The notes beneath the pieces were generated by a model. It saw only the letters and a program-made list of their open reading frames with translations, did no database searches and was not told the DNA's origin. Positions 46,370 to 64,000 of a stretch of 64,000 bases of DNA are shown here, in pieces. The stretch's first letter is position 1. Every line of letters starts with the position of its first letter. Source of the DNA: Powellomyces hirtus. Taxonomy: Eukaryota; Chytridiomycota; Chytridiomycetes; Spizellomycetales; Powellomycetaceae. A program made the position numbers and the translations under genes. Location of the stretch: NCBI GenBank assembly GCA_025526995.1, contig JAHLKG010000009.1, positions 1,033,903 to 1,097,902 on the forward strand, in the 5' to 3' direction.

Positions 46370-48554
46370 CTATACTGCGATGAAGCACCAAGGGGTCCTC
46401 GAGTTGGGTGTGCTCTGTTTCCAGCAACAACCTTTTGCGACACATTGAGATGCGTTGATCCCGGGATATCCGCAGTCCCTCCTGGCGGCGTCCTGCACCT
46501 CACACGACGGGAGACTAATAGTCGGGGTTGGGGAGACTGTCGTGGTGGCGACTACCGTGGTCGCCGTCGACGATGGTTTTGGATCACCCACCACCAACGC
46601 CTGCTTGAAGCACCACGGCACGCCTGCCATCGCGCTTTTCTCCCAACAGCAACCCCTCAACAGGCAGCTTCCGACCGTGACGTTGGGCTCGGGTGCACAG
46701 TCTGTCTTCTCGCTGTCCGATACAACAGCACACGTGTCCACGGGAGTAGGGACGTCCTTGATGTGTTGGAGCGCGGCCCGACGCGCGACGTCAGCGGTGA
46801 CCACTGATGCGTACGACCATGACAAGTCACCTGGGCCTTGCTGGAACCCGTTGTCGGCCCTGAACTGTTCGGCAAGGTAGCCTTCCTTTGTGGCATGTTT
46901 CTGCGTGCGGCGGAGGAACCGGTCGCCATGGTCAACCAGTCTGGCCAACGCGTCGTTAAACGTAGCCGGTTGCTCGGCCCTCGTGAGACGCCAGGGGCCG
47001 TTGGCCATTTTAGGAACCTTGATCAGGTTCCAGAACTCGCCATTGACATTGTTCACCTCGATCACACCCGACTGGGCGTGTGCGTCGGCGGCCCGGTAGA
47101 GGAACTCGGCCATGGCGTTCGTCGCGAGGAACCAGAAACCGGCCCCGGCCGTGTCCTTGTAGTTGCTATGGGTACCGTCGTACACGTCTTCCGGGTATCG
47201 ACCCACAGCGGGGTTCGCAGGGCGCCCGTTGAGGCTGAGCTCTGCGTTGATGCCGGCCCACCAGGCAGAGGTCACGCGCGTGCCGTCGAAGTTGGGAAGG
47301 AATTCCGGTGTGGTGAAGGCGCGGAGGTGTTGAGCGAAGGTGGCTTGGGCTTGTGGGTGCGAATGCGGGAAGGTGGGGATGTTGGCATGGTTCTAGACGT
47401 AGGAACATTGAAGTGAGTTTCAAGTTGCGAAAGACATAGGAACGGGGCGAATCCCACATGAGGAACCATTAGCTTACAAAGGAATAAACGGTGGCAACGT
47501 CAATGTGGTACTTTTGTTTGCTCTTGGAGATACTGCCCTCGTTGCCGCCAGGCTTGGCGGTGTCAGGTAAGGTGGCTTTGATCCTCTTGCCGTCCCAGAA
47601 GCTGTTTAACTTGATCAACGCTTTTCCGGCCTGAAGCCTGTAAAAGTCAGCGGCGGGCTTGTCACCACGAGCCAGTGCAAAGTCGGCGCCATCGATCAAC
47701 GCCCTGTAGGAGATGGCCAGGTCGTAAAAGTGCACCCCTGCGATCTCTTCCCACGGCTCGATTCCGTTCGTCTCCTCGAGGGCGTGACCCACCACCTCCA
47801 AGTCCGTCTTAATCACGCTGAAGGCGTTGAGGTCACCCGCGTAATACTTTCCGTACTCCTTTGTGATGTCCGCCCACCGGATGAAGGTGAGGGCTCGAAG
47901 CGCCGGACCGTCGTACTGAGGGTTGCCCCAGTTTATCACCGGTTTGGGGTTCTCCGCGTTCAGAGAGAACTTGGTCCACCCTTGACGCAGATGGTCTGGC
48001 AACCGCCCTTCCGGGTCGCGGGTCTCTCGCGCGGACTTCTGCACCTTTTTCGTCCATTCGAAGAAGGCGTTCATTTTGTCAACGATGACCTGCGAAGGGT
48101 TGGTCTTGTAGTGGTCGATAACCGCAAGAAGAGTGAAGCCTAAATACGAAGGAAAATCAAATAAATAGATCGTCAACAGCTGAGTAGCAGAATCCCCCAT
48201 TTTTCGTCCAATCCAGGGATATCCCATACAATATGCACGCGCTCTGTACGTCGGAAAAAGCCAACCGCCGCTATGACAGCAAAATACACCCGGCCCACAT
48301 TACATACCACCATCACGCAACCAGTACTCCTGGTACTTTCCATCATTTGGGAACGGTTCGACCGCACCAGCAACCACGGCGCCATTGTCATTTACGTGGG
48401 CGAGGAGACGGCTCACGGCAAAGGGTACCTCCGTCATGAGCCAGTCGGAGACGTCTCTGTTCTCCGCCCGACGAACGATGCCCGCAGCGTTGACGGCGGA
48501 GGAGGACAGGAGGACCGAGAGGGACAGGAGGTTGGCGGTCGTTGCGAGCTTCAT
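46370..48554 (-). CDS. Secreted GH15 glucoamylase with two C-terminal trefoil (P-type) domains
   Basis: Releases glucose from the non-reducing ends of starch or glycogen. Exons 48554-48308, 48139-47478 and 47392-46370 close to 643 aa; introns are 168 and 85 bp. A signal peptide is clear (MKLATTANLLSLSVLLSSSA). The GH15 catalytic domain spans about residues 30-510: EYWLRDGG, WGNPQYDGPALRALTF, the first catalytic-glutamate region NGIEPWEEIAGVHFYDLA, GRYPEDVYDG, and the second GYLAEQF plus GDLSWSYA. After it come two trefoil domains, one with the CLLRGCCWEKS core ending VPWCF and one with CVAKGCCWKQS ending TPWCF, joined by a Thr/Ser/Val-rich linker (TATTVVATTTVSPTP). Fungal GH15 enzymes usually carry a CBM20 or CBM21 starch-binding domain; none is seen. 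Confidence 0.95.
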
Positions 48555-52433: not shown

Positions 52434-52942
52434 GTGGTGCTACCATGTGATATGCTTCCTTTGAAAGTGATTGATGGAAAGAGACGAGCAATATGAACTA
52501 AGTCTGGATTCCAAAGACCATATATTTCTTTAAATGTGAGCGGGAAGTACTCTACTATTTATACTTTGCACCCATTTCTGCTTATCGTGACAACCATTAA
52601 GCCACTTTTCTTATCGCGGATACAGCGGTGAGTTCATCGGGTGCAAAGACACGACTCATCCTGATTTCAGGAAACATGTGATAATGAGGCTTGTTTCAGC
52701 CACTCCTTAGCTAACTTCGATCCGCGTTCTTTTGGAGTCAAACCAGTGGCTTAGGGAGATAGTCCACATTGCTACTATGGCAGCATTTTGGACGCGGGGC
52801 GTATGACACCAACCTACGTAAGGTGGCACCAACGCCACCCTCACCACTAATAACTTCAACAGATGCTGGCATGGAGTGACAAAGGATCTATTGCCACTGG
52901 TGAGTGTATCATACAACTGTTCAAAGGAGTTTGGTAAGGGTC
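52434..52942. other. Subtelomere-side spacer before the palindrome reaches the window limit
   Basis: No gene. It contains one copy of the 60 bp inverted repeat described at 52751-52810. It would lie in the palindrome if that continues beyond the right edge, which cannot be seen. Confidence 0.5.
52751..52810 (+). repeat. 60 bp inverted repeat, left copy
   Basis: Begins TTAGGGAGATAGTCCACAT and ends GGGGCGTATGACACC. The inverted partner at 55686-55744 matches with about six substitutions and one indel. The pair brackets 3.0 kb that holds the Tc1-like element and the formate/nitrite transporter gene. Confidence 0.85.
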
Positions 52943-53156
52943 ACAGACGCGTAACGGACAACCCCTAATCCAACTGGACTGGACTTGATGCTACAGTGCC
53001 CTTCAAGAAAGACGCGGACTCCTCCTCTCCTCCCCCCCAAATTACGTCACTCATTTGTAACTGATCACACTGACATACATGCTTATGTAATGGCTTGTCA
53101 GCGACGAGCTCAAACGGCCAAACAACGCGATCTCGAGATCTCTTGCAGCATTACAC

Positions 53157-54219
53157 ATGCGTAATGGCACCCCTGAACTCCATACAGCGCGCTGCTACAT
53201 AGCGTTGCGTCGGAGTGGTAAAAGCATCAATGAGGTGACGCGCATGCAGAATGTGTCCAGATCAACTGTCACAAGGACTTGGAAACTTTGGAAAGAAAAA
53301 AGAACGTATGAAACCAAAAAACCCCCAAGAAGAAAGAAGCTGGCACACTCTGTGGACATTGTCCCACTGTTGCAGGAAATAATAACAACAGTTGGACGAA
53401 GGAAGACACTAAAGGAGCTATTGAATCTTTTTTATGAATGTGCCGGCTTTAGAGTCAGCAAAAATACCTTCAAAAGCTATGGAACTTTTTTTCTTTGTGT
53501 TAGGAACTATTGGGCTGCCTGTGGACCTACCATGACTTTACAGCATAGGCGTGACCATCTGTTGTTTGTTTTAGCACATGCTCATTGGACAGCTGAGGAT
53601 TGGAGCTGTGTCATATGGACAGACGAGGCTGCAATCCAGATTGGGGGACAGTACCGTTAACGTGTTTGGCGACAGCCCGATGAGCACTATTCACAAGAAT
53701 GCATGCAGCCTATTTTGAGAAAAGGTGTTACAGTAATGTTCTGGGGTTGTTTTATAGGAACCAGAGCTCGTTCAAATCAACAGGATGATTGCACTGCTGC
53801 CAACTGAAAAGCACAAGAAAAAGGGCAAAAGTCGAGGAATTGATTCAGAGGCTTATATCAAGCATTTGACAGAGCATTGCATGCCATTCTGGAGAGAAGT
53901 ATCTGCTCATTCTGAATGTATCTTTCAGCAAGATAACGCAAAGATTCATGTTTCATAGGAAACTATTGAATGGTTTAACTCTGATCCGAACCATCGAAGC
54001 ATCATCATGAAGTGGCTAGCCAACAGCCCTGATTTAAACCCCATTGAAAATCTCTGGGCTATCTTGAAACGGCGTATTTATAGTCTCCAACCCAAACCTA
54101 CCTCTTGGGTGCAGCTGGAATTAGAAGTAGAAGATATCTGGGCTGCAATGGAGCCCAGCATCTTGCAGAATCTGGACTACAGTCGATGGACAAATATGTG
54201 CAGCCCCCTTAGGCGGTGA
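53157..54219 (+). pseudogene. Tc1/mariner transposase, inactivated
   Basis: The N-terminal helix-turn-helix part is readable (RRSGKSINEVTRMQNVSRST). The catalytic triad lies in WTDEAAIQ (first D), FQQDNAKIH (second D) and PDLNPIENLWAILKRR (E region). The frame is broken by TAA after GGQYR at 53658, a frameshift in the middle third and TAG after KIHVS, so no functional enzyme can be made. Catalytic residues are still recognisable, so inactivation looks recent. The C-terminal end overlaps the 100 bp inverted repeat at 54177. Confidence 0.85.
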
Positions 54220-54276
54220 TTATCGGCAGTCGCGTCTCTGACTCGCATGGTCTACACTTTTGTCCACCGACTGTAG
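54177..54276. repeat. 100 bp imperfect hairpin-forming inverted repeat
   Basis: CTACAGTCGATGGACAAA at the left pairs with an inverted TTTGTCCACCGACTGTAG at the right, about 60 bp apart. It covers the last codons of the transposase. It could be an internal end of a nested or shorter element. Confidence 0.7.
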
Positions 54277-54424
54277 ACTAGACTAGAGTCAGCCTTGTGA
54301 CAGTGATGATATTGCGGATATCGCGTTTCTGAGTCATGTGACTGGGAATATCATCCAGAGGGGTCCGCGTCTTTCTTGGAGGGCACGGTACGAACATGTT
54401 CCTTTCTCACACTCCCGTTAACGT

Positions 54425-55627
54425 ATGTCGCCCAATAAGAAACTGGTGGCGGCTGTCGTCAACCCAACGGCCCCCGTCTACAATCAGTCTTGCTGCAACC
54501 TTCCTGCTCACTGCGCTCCGTTGCCCAAGACTTATGTGGCCCAGGCAACTGCACGCAACCCCGCAACCGGCGTGGAACGCCGCGCCACCATCTCGGTCGT
54601 CGCTCCGCACGTCGCTCCGCACGGGGCAGCGGTCCGTGTCCACAGGGCGCAATCAGCAGGGGCCAACACTGGAGAAGCCGTTCCGCCGTTGCCGCGCGAC
54701 TACAACACCGGGGCGGAACTGGAGGTGGCTGTCACCACGCTGGGCATTACAAAGAGCCGCATTTCCGTCGATCACCTCATCTTCCTCGGCCTGCTGGCCG
54801 GCATCTGGGTGGCCTTTGCTGGAATGTTTGCGCAGCAGATCGTTGGCGGCGTGCCGGCGAACATACGGGCGTCCTGGCCGGTGCTCTCAAAGTTGCTGCT
54901 TGGCGTCACTTTTCCCGTCGGGATCGTTTTCATCGTGCTCTTCGGAGGGGAGCTCTTCACCGGAAACACGATGATCATGGTAGTCGCATGGCTCAACCGC
55001 AAGGTGACGACTAGAGACGTCATGGTCAACTGGACCGTTGTGTTCTGCGCCAACTTTGCCGCCTGCGCGCTAACTGCCTACCTGCTGGGCTACTTGACCG
55101 ACTTGTTCGAACCGGAACCGTTTCGCTCCTATGTGATTGCGGTCGCCACACGCAAAGTTCAGCTGCCCTTCTACAAGGCGTTTCTGATGGGCATTCCAGC
55201 AAACGCACTCGTCTGTCTCTCCTTTTTTCTGGGTCTTGCCGCACGTGACGTCACCGGTAAGATTCTGGGACTTTACCTGCCGATCGCCACTTTCGCTGCC
55301 ACGGGCTGGGAGCACTGCGTCGCCAATATGTACTACATTCCCATTGGCTGGATGTATGGCGCTCCGGTCACCGTGGGCGGCATGCTTGCCAACATCTTCG
55401 CCGTTGCTTTGGGAAACATCGTGGGTGGGGGTCTCCTGATCGGTGGAAGCGAGTTTTACATGTACCACTGGCACCGCTCCAGCGAGCCGGTGAGGCACAT
55501 TGGAAAGTGGGGCAAGCCAAGCAAGGACAGGACGGACGACATCGAGATCCTTGAAGTCCATGGAGGGGTCCATGACCATGCCAGGCCTGCATCTCAAGCC
55601 CCTTCGTTGTCGGAACTCATCGTGTAA
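54425..55627 (+). CDS. Formate/nitrite transporter (FNT family), subtelomeric, left copy
   Basis: FNT proteins are pentameric channels that pass formate, nitrite or lactate. A single exon of 400 aa from ATG to TAA. The first about 110 residues are polar and Ala/Pro/Thr-rich and longer than in bacterial members. The membrane core has six hydrophobic segments and the family motifs GGELFTGNTM, FFLGLAARDVTGK, the central-His region GWEHCVANMYYIPIGW, and GNIVGGGLLIGG. The tail is soluble with an acidic stretch and His. It is intact although surrounded by broken transposon genes. It has no introns and is GC-rich at third positions, unlike most genes in this window; transfer from another organism is possible but unproven. 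An identical copy lies at 61316-62518. Confidence 0.94.
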   Translation: MSPNKKLVAAVVNPTAPVYNQSCCNLPAHCAPLPKTYVAQATARNPATGVERRATISVVAPHVAPHGAAVRVHRAQSAGANTGEAVPPLPRDYNTGAELEVAVTTLGITKSRISVDHLIFLGLLAGIWVAFAGMFAQQIVGGVPANIRASWPVLSKLLLGVTFPVGIVFIVLFGGELFTGNTMIMVVAWLNRKVTTRDVMVNWTVVFCANFAACALTAYLLGYLTDLFEPEPFRSYVIAVATRKVQLPFYKAFLMGIPANALVCLSFFLGLAARDVTGKILGLYLPIATFAATGWEHCVANMYYIPIGWMYGAPVTVGGMLANIFAVALGNIVGGGLLIGGSEFYMYHWHRSSEPVRHIGKWGKPSKDRTDDIEILEVHGGVHDHARPASQAPSLSELIV

Positions 55628-55685
55628 AAATGCAGACTCGCACGTCAAAGTCAGACGGATGGATTCAACGAGACACCCCTGTGCC

Positions 55686-55744
55686 GGTGTCATACGCCCC
55701 GCGTCCAAATACCACCATAGTAGTGATGTGGACTATCTCCCTAA
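55686..55744 (-). repeat. 60 bp inverted repeat, right partner of 52751-52810
   Basis: Plus strand begins GGTGTCATACGCCCCGCGTCC and ends GGACTATCTCCCTAA. It sits 59 bp after the transporter stop. Its mirror copy in the other arm is at 61199-61257. Confidence 0.85.
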
Positions 55745-56095
55745 GAGCATCACCAGCGGTCGGCTGAAAAGCCAGGTTTTTGCGTGTTGACTTTTTGAAG
55801 GACGCGTTCGAAGCGATTTTCAACACCACCGGGACCTCAGAATTCAGCTGAAACGAAGCGATTTGGGATTCAGATGGCCCTGTTGCACAAAATGTAGCAA
55901 TATCGGACCGCGTTTGCTGATGCTATAGGGGAGGATGAACTTTTGAGACCCCAACTTTCATATGGGGGATTTACAAGGGTTTCATGGGTGCTGTTGCCAT
56001 CTGAATGGCATATTACAGCTCGAAAACTTGAAGCATCCAGTGGGGTTGACTGCTGGAACATAAACTGAAAACACAACGCGAGCATTGACAAACAA

Positions 56096-57843
56096 ATGGC
56101 AGACGAAACAACTCCAGTGACTCCTCAGGGGGTCAAACAAACGTCAAGCGGAACTCCAGTCAGTCAGCAAAGCGCATTTCCGCAAAGCACAACTCCAGTT
56201 TCGCACCGCCAGCAAAGTGCATTTCCACAAAACACACTCCAGTTTCGCACTGCCAGCAAAGTGCATTTCCGCAAAGTGCAACTCCACTCGGTCATCAGAG
56301 CGCATTTCCGCAAAGCGCAATCCAAGTGCTACACGGCTATCAGGACGGCTTCCAGCCAGCACCCAACTACTCCGGTTATTTTTTGCATCCAACATATACG
56401 CCAGGCGCAGGACCGCTGTGAGATGGCCATAAAGGCACATATACATACATATCTTTTTCGGCTAGTAAAAAGCCATATCCTACATACAGGCACACGCGCC
56501 TCATAAGTGACTTACGTCACCCCCATAATCACAAACCCCGCAGTTTCAGCACTGCCAAGAAATCACCCACGTTACTATAGATAGACACAAATATCCTATA
56601 TACGAGGAAGGGAAAAATCCCCCCTCTTCCAACAACACACGCAATTTTACTCTCTTCACCTTCATATCATCTAAATTCCGGACCTCCTATCGCTTGCCTC
56701 ATCTTCAGAGAACTACTCGTTCAATTCTTCCGCCTGGAAAAGCAGGCACCTCACAACCCCAGTACAATCAAAACGCTCAGCCTTATCCTTTGAAAACGTA
56801 CAACGGTTTTTCACTCAGTCCCACACCGCAATTACGTTCTTTGGCAAGAAGTCGTTCACAAAACGTACTTCCTGACACTGCATCTGAGTCCTCTGGTTCT
56901 TGCAGGCCCGTTTTTAAAGCGTGCTAAGATCAAGCATTGTGTCGGGCGTAGATCGAGGTTTCTGAAGACCTTACCGTTGGAAGCGATCAAAAAAGCAATA
57001 CATTCTGGCAAAGAATTACTGAAGCATACATTGAGGATGTGCCAGAGAATTCCGCGGTCCGCACATAAAAGTCATTGAGCCATCGCTGGACCTACTTTCG
57101 CCCTTCTGTCAACAAGTTTGTTGGAAGTTATATAAGCACTGAGCGCTCTCTGCCATCTGGAACTATGCGCGAGGAGGTTATACCTCTGGCACTTCAGACC
57201 TATCAACAAAAAGAGGGCCGCGCTTTCAGCTTTTTGCATTGCTGGGACAATATTGGAGAAGTGCCCTCAGTAAGAATGTAAATACATGCTAATGTAGACT
57301 TGTTTACACTAATGCGCACTACGCTATTGCAGTTTTAGGTCTACACCCCCTGTTAAACTAGACAAAAGCGGATCGATGGAACACTTTGAAGAACAGCCTA
57401 TTAGGACAAAGCAAGCCAAGCGTCTGGCTCAAAAGGATGCAGGCGCAAAGGATGCATCAGCGATTGCCGAATTGAAGAAACGCAAACTTGAATCTCACAT
57501 TGGATTAATCGAAAACATGAAAGAACAGCAAACTGAGATAACGGAGCACCAGGCAAAGCAGTTACGCTATTCCAATGTCAAAGATGTCGTTACTCTGTTT
57601 GGCAAAGACAGCTCCCCAGCAAAGCAGGCTATTTATGACTTGCAGCTGTACTTGCGCATGACCAGAGAGCGAGAACATCAAAAGTGCACTAATGACGAGC
57701 ACATTATCGCAAAGCATATTGCTGCAGAGCAGATTAATGTAGAGCGTGATAACACGGAGGGTATTGAAGCAGACCGCATTGAAGTAGAGCACCTTAATGC
57801 AGAGCGCTTTAACGCAGAGCACATTAGAGGGTTTCAAAGCTGA
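56096..57843 (+). pseudogene. Harbinger-type Myb/SANT (NAM-associated) protein gene with nonsense codons
   Basis: The N-terminal part (MADETTPVTPQGVKQTSSG) is Gln/Pro-rich and holds a DNA repeat of about 45 bp (QQSAFPQ units), one unit of 44 bp shifting the frame. A Myb/SANT-like domain follows at 56925-57277: ALCRA, stop, IEVSEDLTVGSDQKSNTFWQ, then KSLSHRWTYFRPSVNKFVG and FSFLHCWDNIGEVPS. An intron at 57278-57338 leads to RTKQAKRLAQKDAG and a coiled coil ending in five-residue repeats such as IEADR-IEVEH-LNAER-FNAEH. In-frame stops are TAA at 56925, TAG at 56949 (where relatives have Trp) and TAA at 57066. This arrangement is known from PIF/Harbinger transposon accessory proteins and plant NAM-associated proteins. 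No DDE nuclease is nearby. Confidence 0.75.
57685..57829 (+). repeat. 15 bp coding minisatellite encoding five-residue repeats
   Basis: The end of the Myb/SANT ORF repeats a 15 bp unit close to ATTAATGCAGAGCGC about eight times, giving residues of the form hydrophobic-x-Ala/Val-Glu-basic. Mirror copy at 59114-59258. Confidence 0.75.
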
Positions 57844-58178
57844 GTTGTATCCCTAAAATAGCAACGGGTTTTTTTGTTTTAGTGGAACAAGGTTTTTTGG
57901 CCGGTCTAGCTGATGTAAGCAACTTCAGCTTTGAAACAAAAATTGCAGGTCGACGTTGTAAGAGTGACGTTGCAACAAAAAAAAAAATGCAGATGGATCA
58001 GATGGATCAGATGGATCAAATGTGGATGAGAGTGAGGGGTGAAATATGAGTACAACACTGCTGCTAGGCAACTACAATGTTGCGAAATGTTGCAAGAGGA
58101 CCGCCAAAACGTTGTAAGGTCCTTAACTCTGCTCTCGAGCAGAGGTAACGAAAAACGTTGTAAGTGGGTTTAGACCGT
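57844..58178. other. Subtelomeric spacer between the Myb/SANT gene and the telomere array
   Basis: 335 bp without a gene. Contains a GATGGATCA triple repeat (57992-58018) and an A-run of 12 (57979-57989 region). Confidence 0.6.
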
Positions 58179-58405
58179 GGTTAGGGTTAGGGTTAGGGTT
58201 AGGGTTAGGGTTAGGGTTAGGGTTAGGGTTAGGGTTAGGTTAGGGTTAGGGTTAGGGTTAGGTTAGGGTTAGGGTTAGGGTTAGGTTAGGGTTAGGGTTA
58301 GGGTTAGGGTTAGGGTTAGGGTTAGGGTTAGGGTTAGGGTTAGGGTTAGGGTTAGGGTTAGGGTTAGGGTTAGGGTTAGGGTTAGGGTTAGGGTTAGGGT
58401 TAGGG

Positions 58406-58446
<41 letters not shown>

Positions 58447-58455
58447 GGTTAGGGT
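58179..58455 (+). repeat. Telomere array, TTAGGG on the plus strand
   Basis: About 46 units of GGGTTA over 277 bp with four or five variant units (GGTTA, GGGTTTA). This orientation is that of a right chromosome end. Confidence 0.97.
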
Positions 58456-58501
58456 CACAACCACAACGGAACGCTTAGCAAAGAAAGTTACCCACTAACC
58501 A
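58456..58501. other. Non-telomeric spacer at the palindrome axis
   Basis: 46 bp (CACAACCACAACGGAACGCT ...) between two opposing telomere arrays; the axis at 58471.5 falls inside it. It is not self-complementary and has no counterpart in the arms that I can see. It could be filler at a fusion joint, foreign linker sequence or misread telomere. Confidence 0.85.
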
Positions 58502-58703
58502 CTAACCCTAACCCTAACCCTAACCCTAACCCTAGACCCCTAAAAACCTAAGAGCCTAACCCTAACCCTAACCTAAGTACCCTAACCCTAACCCTAACCC
58601 TAACCCTAACCCTAACCCTAACCCTAACCGTAAACCCTAACCTAACCCTAAACCCTAACCCTACCCCTAACCCTAACCCTAACCCTACCTAAACCCTAAC
58701 CTA

Positions 58704-58739
<36 letters not shown>

Positions 58740-58764
58740 CCCTAACCCTAACCCTACCCTAACC
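58502..58764 (-). repeat. Telomere array, CCCTAA on the plus strand
   Basis: About 263 bp of CCCTAA units, the orientation of a left chromosome end. It is clearly noisier than the opposing array, with units such as CCCCTAAAAACCTAAGAGCC at 58535-58555 and several CCTAA, CCCTACC and AAACCC variants. Confidence 0.97.
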
Positions 58765-59099
58765 ACGGTCTAAACCCACTTACAACGTTTTTCGTTACCT
58801 CTGCTCGAGAGCAGAGTTAAGGACCTTACAACGTTTTGGCGGTCCTCTTGCAACATTTCGCAACATTGTAGTTGCCTAGCAGCAGTGTTGTACTCATATT
58901 TCACCCCTCACTCTCATCCACATTTGATCCATCTGATCCATCTGATCCATCTGCATTTTTTTTTTTGTTGCAACGTCACTCTTACAACGTCGACCTGCAA
59001 TTTTTGTTTCAAAGCTGAAGTTGCTTACATCAGCTAGACCGGCCAAAAAACCTTGTTCCACTAAAACAAAAAAACCCGTTGCTATTTTAGGGATACAAC

Positions 59100-60847
59100 T
59101 CAGCTTTGAAACCCTCTAATGTGCTCTGCGTTAAAGCGCTCTGCATTAAGGTGCTCTACTTCAATGCGGTCTGCTTCAATACCCTCCGTGTTATCACGCT
59201 CTACATTAATCTGCTCTGCAGCAATATGCTTTGCGATAATGTGCTCGTCATTAGTGCACTTTTGATGTTCTCGCTCTCTGGTCATGCGCAAGTACAGCTG
59301 CAAGTCATAAATAGCCTGCTTTGCTGGGGAGCTGTCTTTGCCAAACAGAGTAACGACATCTTTGACATTGGAATAGCGTAACTGCTTTGCCTGGTGCTCC
59401 GTTATCTCAGTTTGCTGTTCTTTCATGTTTTCGATTAATCCAATGTGAGATTCAAGTTTGCGTTTCTTCAATTCGGCAATCGCTGATGCATCCTTTGCGC
59501 CTGCATCCTTTTGAGCCAGACGCTTGGCTTGCTTTGTCCTAATAGGCTGTTCTTCAAAGTGTTCCATCGATCCGCTTTTGTCTAGTTTAACAGGGGGTGT
59601 AGACCTAAAACTGCAATAGCGTAGTGCGCATTAGTGTAAACAAGTCTACATTAGCATGTATTTACATTCTTACTGAGGGCACTTCTCCAATATTGTCCCA
59701 GCAATGCAAAAAGCTGAAAGCGCGGCCCTCTTTTTGTTGATAGGTCTGAAGTGCCAGAGGTATAACCTCCTCGCGCATAGTTCCAGATGGCAGAGAGCGC
59801 TCAGTGCTTATATAACTTCCAACAAACTTGTTGACAGAAGGGCGAAAGTAGGTCCAGCGATGGCTCAATGACTTTTATGTGCGGACCGCGGAATTCTCTG
59901 GCACATCCTCAATGTATGCTTCAGTAATTCTTTGCCAGAATGTATTGCTTTTTTGATCGCTTCCAACGGTAAGGTCTTCAGAAACCTCGATCTACGCCCG
60001 ACACAATGCTTGATCTTAGCACGCTTTAAAAACGGGCCTGCAAGAACCAGAGGACTCAGATGCAGTGTCAGGAAGTACGTTTTGTGAACGACTTCTTGCC
60101 AAAGAACGTAATTGCGGTGTGGGACTGAGTGAAAAACCGTTGTACGTTTTCAAAGGATAAGGCTGAGCGTTTTGATTGTACTGGGGTTGTGAGGTGCCTG
60201 CTTTTCCAGGCGGAAGAATTGAACGAGTAGTTCTCTGAAGATGAGGCAAGCGATAGGAGGTCCGGAATTTAGATGATATGAAGGTGAAGAGAGTAAAATT
60301 GCGTGTGTTGTTGGAAGAGGGGGGATTTTTCCCTTCCTCGTATATAGGATATTTGTGTCTATCTATAGTAACGTGGGTGATTTCTTGGCAGTGCTGAAAC
60401 TGCGGGGTTTGTGATTATGGGGGTGACGTAAGTCACTTATGAGGCGCGTGTGCCTGTATGTAGGATATGGCTTTTTACTAGCCGAAAAAGATATGTATGT
60501 ATATGTGCCTTTATGGCCATCTCACAGCGGTCCTGCGCCTGGCGTATATGTTGGATGCAAAAAATAACCGGAGTAGTTGGGTGCTGGCTGGAAGCCGTCC
60601 TGATAGCCGTGTAGCACTTGGATTGCGCTTTGCGGAAATGCGCTCTGATGACCGAGTGGAGTTGCACTTTGCGGAAATGCACTTTGCTGGCAGTGCGAAA
60701 CTGGAGTGTGTTTTGTGGAAATGCACTTTGCTGGCGGTGCGAAACTGGAGTTGTGCTTTGCGGAAATGCGCTTTGCTGACTGACTGGAGTTCCGCTTGAC
60801 GTTTGTTTGACCCCCTGAGGAGTCACTGGAGTTGTTTCGTCTGCCAT
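59100..60847 (-). pseudogene. Right-arm copy of the Harbinger-type Myb/SANT pseudogene
   Basis: Mirror image of 56096-57843 with the same three nonsense codons and the same frame-shifting 44 bp repeat unit. The damage therefore predates the duplication, or the two arms are one sequence read twice. Confidence 0.75.
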
Positions 60848-61198
60848 TTGTTTGTCAATGCTCGCGTTGTGTTTTCAGTTTATGTTCCAGCAGTCAACCC
60901 CACTGGATGCTTCAAGTTTTCGAGCTGTAATATGCCATTCAGATGGCAACAGCACCCATGAAACCCTTGTAAATCCCCCATATGAAAGTTGGGGTCTCAA
61001 AAGTTCATCCTCCCCTATAGCATCAGCAAACGCGGTCCGATATTGCTACATTTTGTGCAACAGGGCCATCTGAATCCCAAATCGCTTCGTTTCAGCTGAA
61101 TTCTGAGGTCCCGGTGGTGTTGAAAATCGCTTCGAACGCGTCCTTCAAAAAGTCAACACGCAAAAACCTGGCTTTTCAGCCGACCGCTGGTGATGCTC

Positions 61199-61257
61199 TT
61201 AGGGAGATAGTCCACATCACTACTATGGTGGTATTTGGACGCGGGGCGTATGACACC
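61199..61257 (+). repeat. Right-arm copy of the 60 bp repeat
   Basis: Plus strand begins TTAGGGAGATAGTCCACATC and ends GGGGCGTATGACACC; mirror of 55686-55744. Confidence 0.85.
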
Positions 61258-61315
61258 GGCACAGGGGTGTCTCGTTGAATCCATCCGTCTGACTTTGACG
61301 TGCGAGTCTGCATTT

Positions 61316-62518
61316 TTACACGATGAGTTCCGACAACGAAGGGGCTTGAGATGCAGGCCTGGCATGGTCATGGACCCCTCCATGGACTTCAAGGATCTCG
61401 ATGTCGTCCGTCCTGTCCTTGCTTGGCTTGCCCCACTTTCCAATGTGCCTCACCGGCTCGCTGGAGCGGTGCCAGTGGTACATGTAAAACTCGCTTCCAC
61501 CGATCAGGAGACCCCCACCCACGATGTTTCCCAAAGCAACGGCGAAGATGTTGGCAAGCATGCCGCCCACGGTGACCGGAGCGCCATACATCCAGCCAAT
61601 GGGAATGTAGTACATATTGGCGACGCAGTGCTCCCAGCCCGTGGCAGCGAAAGTGGCGATCGGCAGGTAAAGTCCCAGAATCTTACCGGTGACGTCACGT
61701 GCGGCAAGACCCAGAAAAAAGGAGAGACAGACGAGTGCGTTTGCTGGAATGCCCATCAGAAACGCCTTGTAGAAGGGCAGCTGAACTTTGCGTGTGGCGA
61801 CCGCAATCACATAGGAGCGAAACGGTTCCGGTTCGAACAAGTCGGTCAAGTAGCCCAGCAGGTAGGCAGTTAGCGCGCAGGCGGCAAAGTTGGCGCAGAA
61901 CACAACGGTCCAGTTGACCATGACGTCTCTAGTCGTCACCTTGCGGTTGAGCCATGCGACTACCATGATCATCGTGTTTCCGGTGAAGAGCTCCCCTCCG
62001 AAGAGCACGATGAAAACGATCCCGACGGGAAAAGTGACGCCAAGCAGCAACTTTGAGAGCACCGGCCAGGACGCCCGTATGTTCGCCGGCACGCCGCCAA
62101 CGATCTGCTGCGCAAACATTCCAGCAAAGGCCACCCAGATGCCGGCCAGCAGGCCGAGGAAGATGAGGTGATCGACGGAAATGCGGCTCTTTGTAATGCC
62201 CAGCGTGGTGACAGCCACCTCCAGTTCCGCCCCGGTGTTGTAGTCGCGCGGCAACGGCGGAACGGCTTCTCCAGTGTTGGCCCCTGCTGATTGCGCCCTG
62301 TGGACACGGACCGCTGCCCCGTGCGGAGCGACGTGCGGAGCGACGACCGAGATGGTGGCGCGGCGTTCCACGCCGGTTGCGGGGTTGCGTGCAGTTGCCT
62401 GGGCCACATAAGTCTTGGGCAACGGAGCGCAGTGAGCAGGAAGGTTGCAGCAAGACTGATTGTAGACGGGGGCCGTTGGGTTGACGACAGCCGCCACCAG
62501 TTTCTTATTGGGCGACAT
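61316..62518 (-). CDS. Formate/nitrite transporter (FNT family), right-arm copy
   Basis: The encoded 400 aa protein is the same as that at 54425-55627, with the same start, stop and motifs (GGELFTGNTM, GWEHCVANMYYIPIGW, GNIVGGG). No difference was noticed between the two copies. If the palindrome is real, this is a second identical gene per chromosome joint, which would imply a very recent event or gene conversion. If the palindrome is a fold-back artefact, the gene exists once. Neighbours are mirror images: the Tc1-like element upstream and the 60 bp repeat downstream. Confidence 0.9.
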   Translation of the reverse strand: MSPNKKLVAAVVNPTAPVYNQSCCNLPAHCAPLPKTYVAQATARNPATGVERRATISVVAPHVAPHGAAVRVHRAQSAGANTGEAVPPLPRDYNTGAELEVAVTTLGITKSRISVDHLIFLGLLAGIWVAFAGMFAQQIVGGVPANIRASWPVLSKLLLGVTFPVGIVFIVLFGGELFTGNTMIMVVAWLNRKVTTRDVMVNWTVVFCANFAACALTAYLLGYLTDLFEPEPFRSYVIAVATRKVQLPFYKAFLMGIPANALVCLSFFLGLAARDVTGKILGLYLPIATFAATGWEHCVANMYYIPIGWMYGAPVTVGGMLANIFAVALGNIVGGGLLIGGSEFYMYHWHRSSEPVRHIGKWGKPSKDRTDDIEILEVHGGVHDHARPASQAPSLSELIV

Positions 62519-62554
62519 ACGTTAACGGGAGTGTGAGAAAGGAACATGTTCGTA

Positions 62555-63949
62555 CCGTGCCCTCCAAGAAAGACGCGGACCCCTCTGGATGATATTCCCA
62601 GTCACATGACTCAGAAACGCGATATCCGCAATATCATCACTGTCACAAGGCTGACTCTAGTCTAGTCTACAGTCGGTGGACAAAAGTGTAGACCATGCGA
62701 GTCAGAGACGCGACTGCCGATAATCACCGCCTAAGGGGGCTGCACATATTTGTCCATCGACTGTAGTCCAGATTCTGCAAGATGCTGGGCTCCATTGCAG
62801 CCCAGATATCTTCTACTTCTAATTCCAGCTGCACCCAAGAGGTAGGTTTGGGTTGGAGACTATAAATACGCCGTTTCAAGATAGCCCAGAGATTTTCAAT
62901 GGGGTTTAAATCAGGGCTGTTGGCTAGCCACTTCATGATGATGCTTCGATGGTTCGGATCAGAGTTAAACCATTCAATAGTTTCCTATGAAACATGAATC
63001 TTTGCGTTATCTTGCTGAAAGATACATTCAGAATGAGCAGATACTTCTCTCCAGAATGGCATGCAATGCTCTGTCAAATGCTTGATATAAGCCTCTGAAT
63101 CAATTCCTCGACTTTTGCCCTTTTTCTTGTGCTTTTCAGTTGGCAGCAGTGCAATCATCCTGTTGATTTGAACGAGCTCTGGTTCCTATAAAACAACCCC
63201 AGAACATTACTGTAACACCTTTTCTCAAAATAGGCTGCATGCATTCTTGTGAATAGTGCTCATCGGGCTGTCGCCAAACACGTTAACGGTACTGTCCCCC
63301 AATCTGGATTGCAGCCTCGTCTGTCCATATGACACAGCTCCAATCCTCAGCTGTCCAATGAGCATGTGCTAAAACAAACAACAGATGGTCACGCCTATGC
63401 TGTAAAGTCATGGTAGGATCCACAGGCAGCCCAATAGTTCCTAACACAAAGAAAAAAAGTTCCATAGCTTTTGAAGGTATTTTTGCTGACTCTAAAGCCG
63501 GCACATCATAAAAAAGATTCAATAGCTCCTTTAGTGTCTTCCTTCGTCCAACTGTTGTTATTATTTCCTGCAACAGTGGGACAATGTCCACAGAGTGTGC
63601 CAGCTTCTTTCTTCTTGGGGGTTTTTTGGTTTCATACGTTCTTTTTTCTTTCCAAAGTTTCCAAGTCCTTGTGACAGTTGATCTGGACACATTCTGCATG
63701 CGCGTCACCTCATTGATGCTTTTACCACTCCGACGCAACGCATGTAGCAGCGCGCTGTATGGAGTTCAGGGGTGCCATTACGCATGTGTAATGCTGCAAG
63801 AGATCTCGAGATCGCGTTGTTTGGCCGTTTGAGCTCGTCGCTGACAAGCCCTTACATAAGCTGTATGTCAGTGTGATCAGTTACAAATGAGTGACGTAAT
63901 TGTGGGGGGGAGGAGGAGGAGTCCGCGTCTTTCTTGAAGGGCACTGTAG
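62555..63949 (-). mobile_element. Right-arm copy of the Tc1/mariner-type element
   Basis: Mirror of 52994-54388, with the same TA-flanked terminal inverted repeats (CCGTGCCCTCCAAGAAAGAC at the inner end and the CAGTGCCCTTCAAGAAAGAC type at the outer end). Small indels distinguish its outer 0.5 kb from the left copy. Confidence 0.85.
62724..63786 (-). pseudogene. Right-arm copy of the Tc1/mariner transposase, inactivated
   Basis: Same triad regions (WTDEAAIQ, FQQDNAKIH, PDLNPIENLWAILKRR) and same stop after GGQYR as in the left copy. A one-base deletion and a one-base insertion, about 80 bp apart, replace the segment ECAGFRVSKNTFKSY of the left copy by DVPALESAKIPSKAM, and another deletion shifts the N-terminal frame. 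Confidence 0.8.
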
Positions 63950-64000
63950 CATCAAGTCCAGTCCAGTTGGATTAGGGGTTGTCCGTTACGCGTCTGGACC

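Follow-up and report, generated by a model that had tools for sequence, protein, structure and literature searches.

The right end of contig C9 in the Powellomyces hirtus assembly is a mirror image of itself, and we read it, with a probability of about 0.94, as an ordinary chromosome end with a technical fold-back, a strong inference rather than proof. The window (the whole stretch of 64,000 nucleotides that was analysed) comprises bases 1,033,903-1,097,902 of this contig, which belongs to an assembly of 60 contigs and 29.26 Mb. The TTAGGG array at window positions 58181-58455 is taken as the true chromosome end, and positions 58456-64000, the last 5.5 kb of C9, should be trimmed; on the sequence alone, the end is almost certainly no genuine chromosome fusion. 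The original prediction had left the choice between a real structure and a fold-back open. The fold-back option is now supported by a contig end that falls within the second arm, a raw-looking return array, one-sided indels at the tip, an ordinary first array and a foreign linker, and the real-structure options gained no support. The distinction matters, as the double-counted stretch of about 5.5 kb, formate/nitrite transporter gene included, can mislead annotation and comparative studies and the joint mimics a chromosome fusion; were the joint real, the end of C9 would be a rare stable fused end.

Geometry of the palindrome

The structure starts with an outbound arm (52939-58180, forward strand), which corresponds to the true subtelomere and carries a formate/nitrite transporter gene and a transposase-like open reading frame. 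The arm is followed by a TTAGGG array of 275 bp (58181-58455, forward), a non-telomeric linker of about 41 bp (58456-58496, forward), a return CCCTAA array of about 268 bp (58497-58764, reverse) and a return arm (58765-64000, reverse), the reversed second copy of the outbound arm, which ends with the contig. The inner boundary of the return array is not sharp, and Tandem Repeats Finder sets it at 58495.

Comparison of the window with itself by BLAST gave one long inverted match across 52939-64000 (E = 0, far beyond chance). When 52939-58184 is aligned with the reverse complement of 58759-64000, 5239 of 5248 columns are identical, the others being eight gap columns (seven gap openings) and one mismatch, and the inner 4659 bp of the arms are fully identical. 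The giant inverted repeat with genes in mirror order that was originally proposed is therefore borne out, as a near-perfect palindrome about one axis. Two details of that proposal need amendment: the mirror coordinates sum to 116,943 in the inner arms (4982 of 5237 positions checked) but not throughout, because indels in the outermost 590 bp or so shift the remaining positions, and the (TTAGGG)n and (CCCTAA)n arrays do lie head to head but do not meet directly, since the linker parts them.

The last base of C9 (1,097,902) is window base 64000 and lies inside the second arm. The outer edge of the repeat at this position is no natural boundary, because the contig itself ends there; the copy of the same arm runs to the contig end, with no unique sequence after it. 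A real and recent telomere-to-telomere joint, such as a sister-chromatid fusion or an isochromosome end with a 41-bp filler between two full-length arrays, predicts head-to-head arrays and identical arms, as seen, and arm identity does not tell an artefact from a recent fusion of the sister type. However, a fusion should have unique chromosomal sequence flanking the joint on either side, and none follows it here, the sequence halting in the second arm; moreover, both arrays have full ordinary length, the departures are one-sided and the linker is not genomic, so that such a joint is very improbable. Telomere fusions of the sister type are normally unstable.

Genes carried by the arms

The formate/nitrite transporter gene (PF01226) occupies 54422-55627 on the forward strand, with its mirror copy at 61316-62521 on the reverse strand, and its product shares 99% identity with a protein of Powellomyces hirtus and 92% with two from Geranomyces. 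Closer to the joint, an open frame of 176 aa with no Pfam match (57313-57843, forward) has its mirror copy at 59100-59630 (reverse). The third frame, of 189 aa (53091-53660, forward), shows helix-turn-helix matches below the Pfam cut-offs and is called transposase-like on our own reading of the sequence; its mirror (63283-63765, reverse) is frame-shifted. Elsewhere in the window, positions 46370-48299 (reverse strand) hold pieces of a glycoside hydrolase family 15 gene, the C-terminal piece having two trefoil-domain stretches.

Differences between the arms

All nine differences between the arms are found in the outermost 589 of 5248 columns, beside the contig end; if differences were placed randomly and independently, the chance of all nine falling there would be about 3 in 10^9 ((589/5248)^9, calculated by hand). 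In six of the eight gap columns among them the return arm lacks a base, and in the other two it has one too many. A dispersed transposase-like element runs through this outermost stretch, and three other copies of it (84-87% identity), from 28 matching places, were compared with both arms. At the five clear sites (53080, 53091, 53201, 53437 and 53525) the outbound arm agrees with all three copies for the presence or absence of the base, one copy carrying a different base at 53080, and the return arm stands alone. The differences in or beside the C/T-rich run at 53028-53039 are ambiguous in alignment, and the outermost one, at 52943, lies outside the coverage of the copies.

Because the outbound arm matches its paralogues at 5/5 clear sites, the return arm carries errors rather than divergence, and as a result its transposase-like frame is shifted and shorter, with 160 aa against 189. 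Divergence of two real arms was considered and ruled out by differences that are nearly all gaps, on one arm and at the contig tip. An old inverted subtelomeric duplication would likewise give a mirrored gene order, but it is contradicted by the full identity of the inner 4659 bp, by differences that occur at the contig tip only and are nearly all gaps, and by the lack of a flank past the second arm, and we regard it as extremely improbable.

Telomere arrays at the joint and at other contig ends

The arrays of the joint were compared with those of other contig ends, for which 1.2 kb was retrieved from every left end (60) and every right end but that of C9 (59), 119 ends in total; the left end of C30 reads as N and stands outside judgement. 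Terminal telomere arrays were found at 26 of these ends, spanning about 210-383 bp, and in 26/26 no more than 10 bp separate the outermost full repeat unit from the contig end. At 275 bp, the outbound array of C9 is typical of this set, save that the sequence continues after it.

The two arrays of the joint differ in quality. In alignments with perfect repeats, 4 of 278 columns (1.4%) deviate in the outbound array, compared with 27 of 279 (9.7%; 5 substitutions, 11 insertions and 11 deletions) in the return array, the exact figure for the latter depending on the linker end chosen. Departures in the 25 terminal arrays measured, 23 right and 2 left (that of C44, found later, was left out), range from 0 to 7.8%, with three arrays at 5.9-7.8% and a fourth, that of C26, at 5.9%; part of the noise in the return array may thus consist of true repeat variants. 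Errors of the raw-read type are confined to the return side, in the array (9.7% versus 1.4%) as in the arm (5/5 clear differences).

A covalently closed hairpin chromosome end, sequenced around its loop, would also be expected to yield a palindrome with a short loop. Nevertheless, the assembly simply breaks off at its 26 other telomeric ends, the loop is non-telomeric, and an array of the telomerase type would be redundant beside a hairpin, which together leave this explanation with a minimal probability.

The arrays are far commoner at right (24/59) than at left (2/60) contig ends, C12 having both, and this bias may come from contig orientation or trimming. A common subtelomere is lacking: 17 pairwise match rows were obtained among 27 ends (the 26 ends with arrays and that of C9), none of them involving C9, and the 780 bp before the C9 telomere had no match among the 119 fetched ends. 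By eye, arrays adjoin frames resembling retroelement reverse transcriptase or integrase at five fetched ends (L089, L042, L100, L103 and L090) and an ABC transporter-like frame at another (L110), and these abutments give the impression of telomere addition to broken ends. Short interstitial CCCTAA runs occur at the left ends of C9 (L048, 292-327) and C10 (L049, 147-1196), each behind similar sequence, and give the appearance of a family of dispersed repeats associated with telomeric motifs.

Searches for similar joints and further arm copies

A genome search for other head-to-head joints, with TTAGGG and CCCTAA repeats separated by a gap, found none with gaps of 0-30 bp, and with gaps of 30-60 bp it returned the C9 joint only, listed four times. 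Further copies of the arm were sought with three of its pieces, one scoring covering 40 of 141 candidates. The longest matches outside the arms were 84-89% identical over about 610-625 bp for the pieces 57200-58150 and 52900-53600, and 87-90% identical over about 440-660 bp for the piece 55700-57200; short non-arm matches reached 97% over 133 bp.

Of the 118 readable 1.2-kb contig ends, three contain an inverted self-match, of 30, 54 and 162 bp, and no such match lies in a telomere array; the test is blind to fold-backs with a second arm longer than about 0.6-1.2 kb, that of C9 included. Two of these matches lie near left contig ends: that of 54 bp, in C50 (L128, 972-1025), is a perfect palindrome, and that of 162 bp, in C32 (L071, 73-233 and 1039-1200), is an inverted pair with 98.8% identity.

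The linker

A 33-base stretch of the linker (58455-58487) matches the genome only at the joint itself, with up to 3 mismatches and no gaps allowed, and a genomic filler was ruled out on this ground. Over about 33 positions the linker bears a weak likeness to the PacBio SMRTbell adapter in reverse complement, without the outermost bases of the adapter, whose sequence is printed in PMC12745853. The chance of such a score is 0.25-2.3%, depending on the null. The observed score was reached by 0.25% of 2000 linker shuffles and, under a long-read error model, by 6/1000 shuffles and 20/3000 window 45-mers. In further controls, with the 41-bp linker and both orientations allowed, it was reached by 26/5000 dinucleotide-shuffled and 116/5000 mononucleotide-shuffled adapters, by 34/5000 dinucleotide-shuffled linkers and by 33/5000 window 41-mers. 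Some low-complexity places in the window outscore the linker against the adapter (42 versus 33), and the resemblance is suggestive only as a hint of a missed adapter. The Nanopore ligation, Nanopore rapid and Illumina TruSeq adapters gave no score above chance against the linker on either strand (shuffle fractions 0.26-0.84).

The fold could also have been made by another route, namely a Nanopore fold-back, a duplex read left unsplit, or a 3' end that primed its own extension during end repair of the library, in which case the linker would be badly called sequence. This route is a variant of the fold-back reading, included in its overall probability and different in the joining step alone, and it is possible but rather doubtful. 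In its favour, fold-backs make up 0.55-0.6% of Nanopore genomic DNA reads according to the results seen in PMC12870357, and the adapter match in the linker is no more than suggestive. On the other hand, self-priming at a telomere would be expected to leave a loop of telomeric repeats and not 41 bp of non-telomeric sequence, and the linker shows no match to either Nanopore adapter, ligation or rapid. A missed PacBio adapter would in turn be disfavoured if the library were of the HiFi type, in which the same results report virtually no fold-backs; these rates speak against a HiFi origin and not against older continuous long reads.

Proposed origin of the fold

We infer the platform, the missed adapter and the number of reads. 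One or a few long reads would have followed the arm as far as the end of the DNA molecule, crossed a connecting sequence and returned on the opposite strand, the connecting sequence probably being a SMRTbell hairpin adapter missed by the read-splitting software. The assembler would then have kept the palindromic read as an extension of C9, making 58456-64000 a reversed second copy. At a telomere, fragments would share an end, and the fold may survive there because no read passes the natural end to outvote the palindrome. The identity of the inner arms could be due to polishing, as polishing reads would map to either copy.

This scheme fits faults described for long reads. Missed or missing SMRTbell adapters give palindromic reads that can affect assembly, as stated in the part of PMC6218980 consulted, and PMC8848313 counts missed adapters among the known defects of real PacBio reads. 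The sections seen of PMC11258239 include P. hirtus among the fungi with 6mA values, those of earlier genomes coming from PacBio reads, and the assembly concerned there is not necessarily the present one. Among the papers listed for missed-adapter palindromes at telomeres, which offered general statements, no described case of the C9 kind was noticed.

Comparison with known systems

Telomere-telomere fusions, as generally known, share with C9 the TTAGGG repeats facing CCCTAA repeats. C9 differs from them in its lack of unique sequence past the joint, its full-length arrays, its one-sided errors and a linker absent elsewhere in the genome.

The long-read fold-backs in the portion of PMC12870357 consulted resemble C9 in that the second segment comes from the same place on the opposite strand and forms a near-perfect palindrome with the first; as far as that portion goes, reads rather than contigs are treated and the fold-backs are mainly from Nanopore, whereas the C9 case is a contig. 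In PacBio reads with a missed adapter, as described in PMC6218980 where consulted, the palindrome joins the two strands of one molecule, as in C9. Unlike in those reads, the palindrome of C9 persists in a finished contig and at a telomere, with the adapter only weakly recognisable, a case that hints at why fold-backs may persist in an assembly at telomeres in particular.
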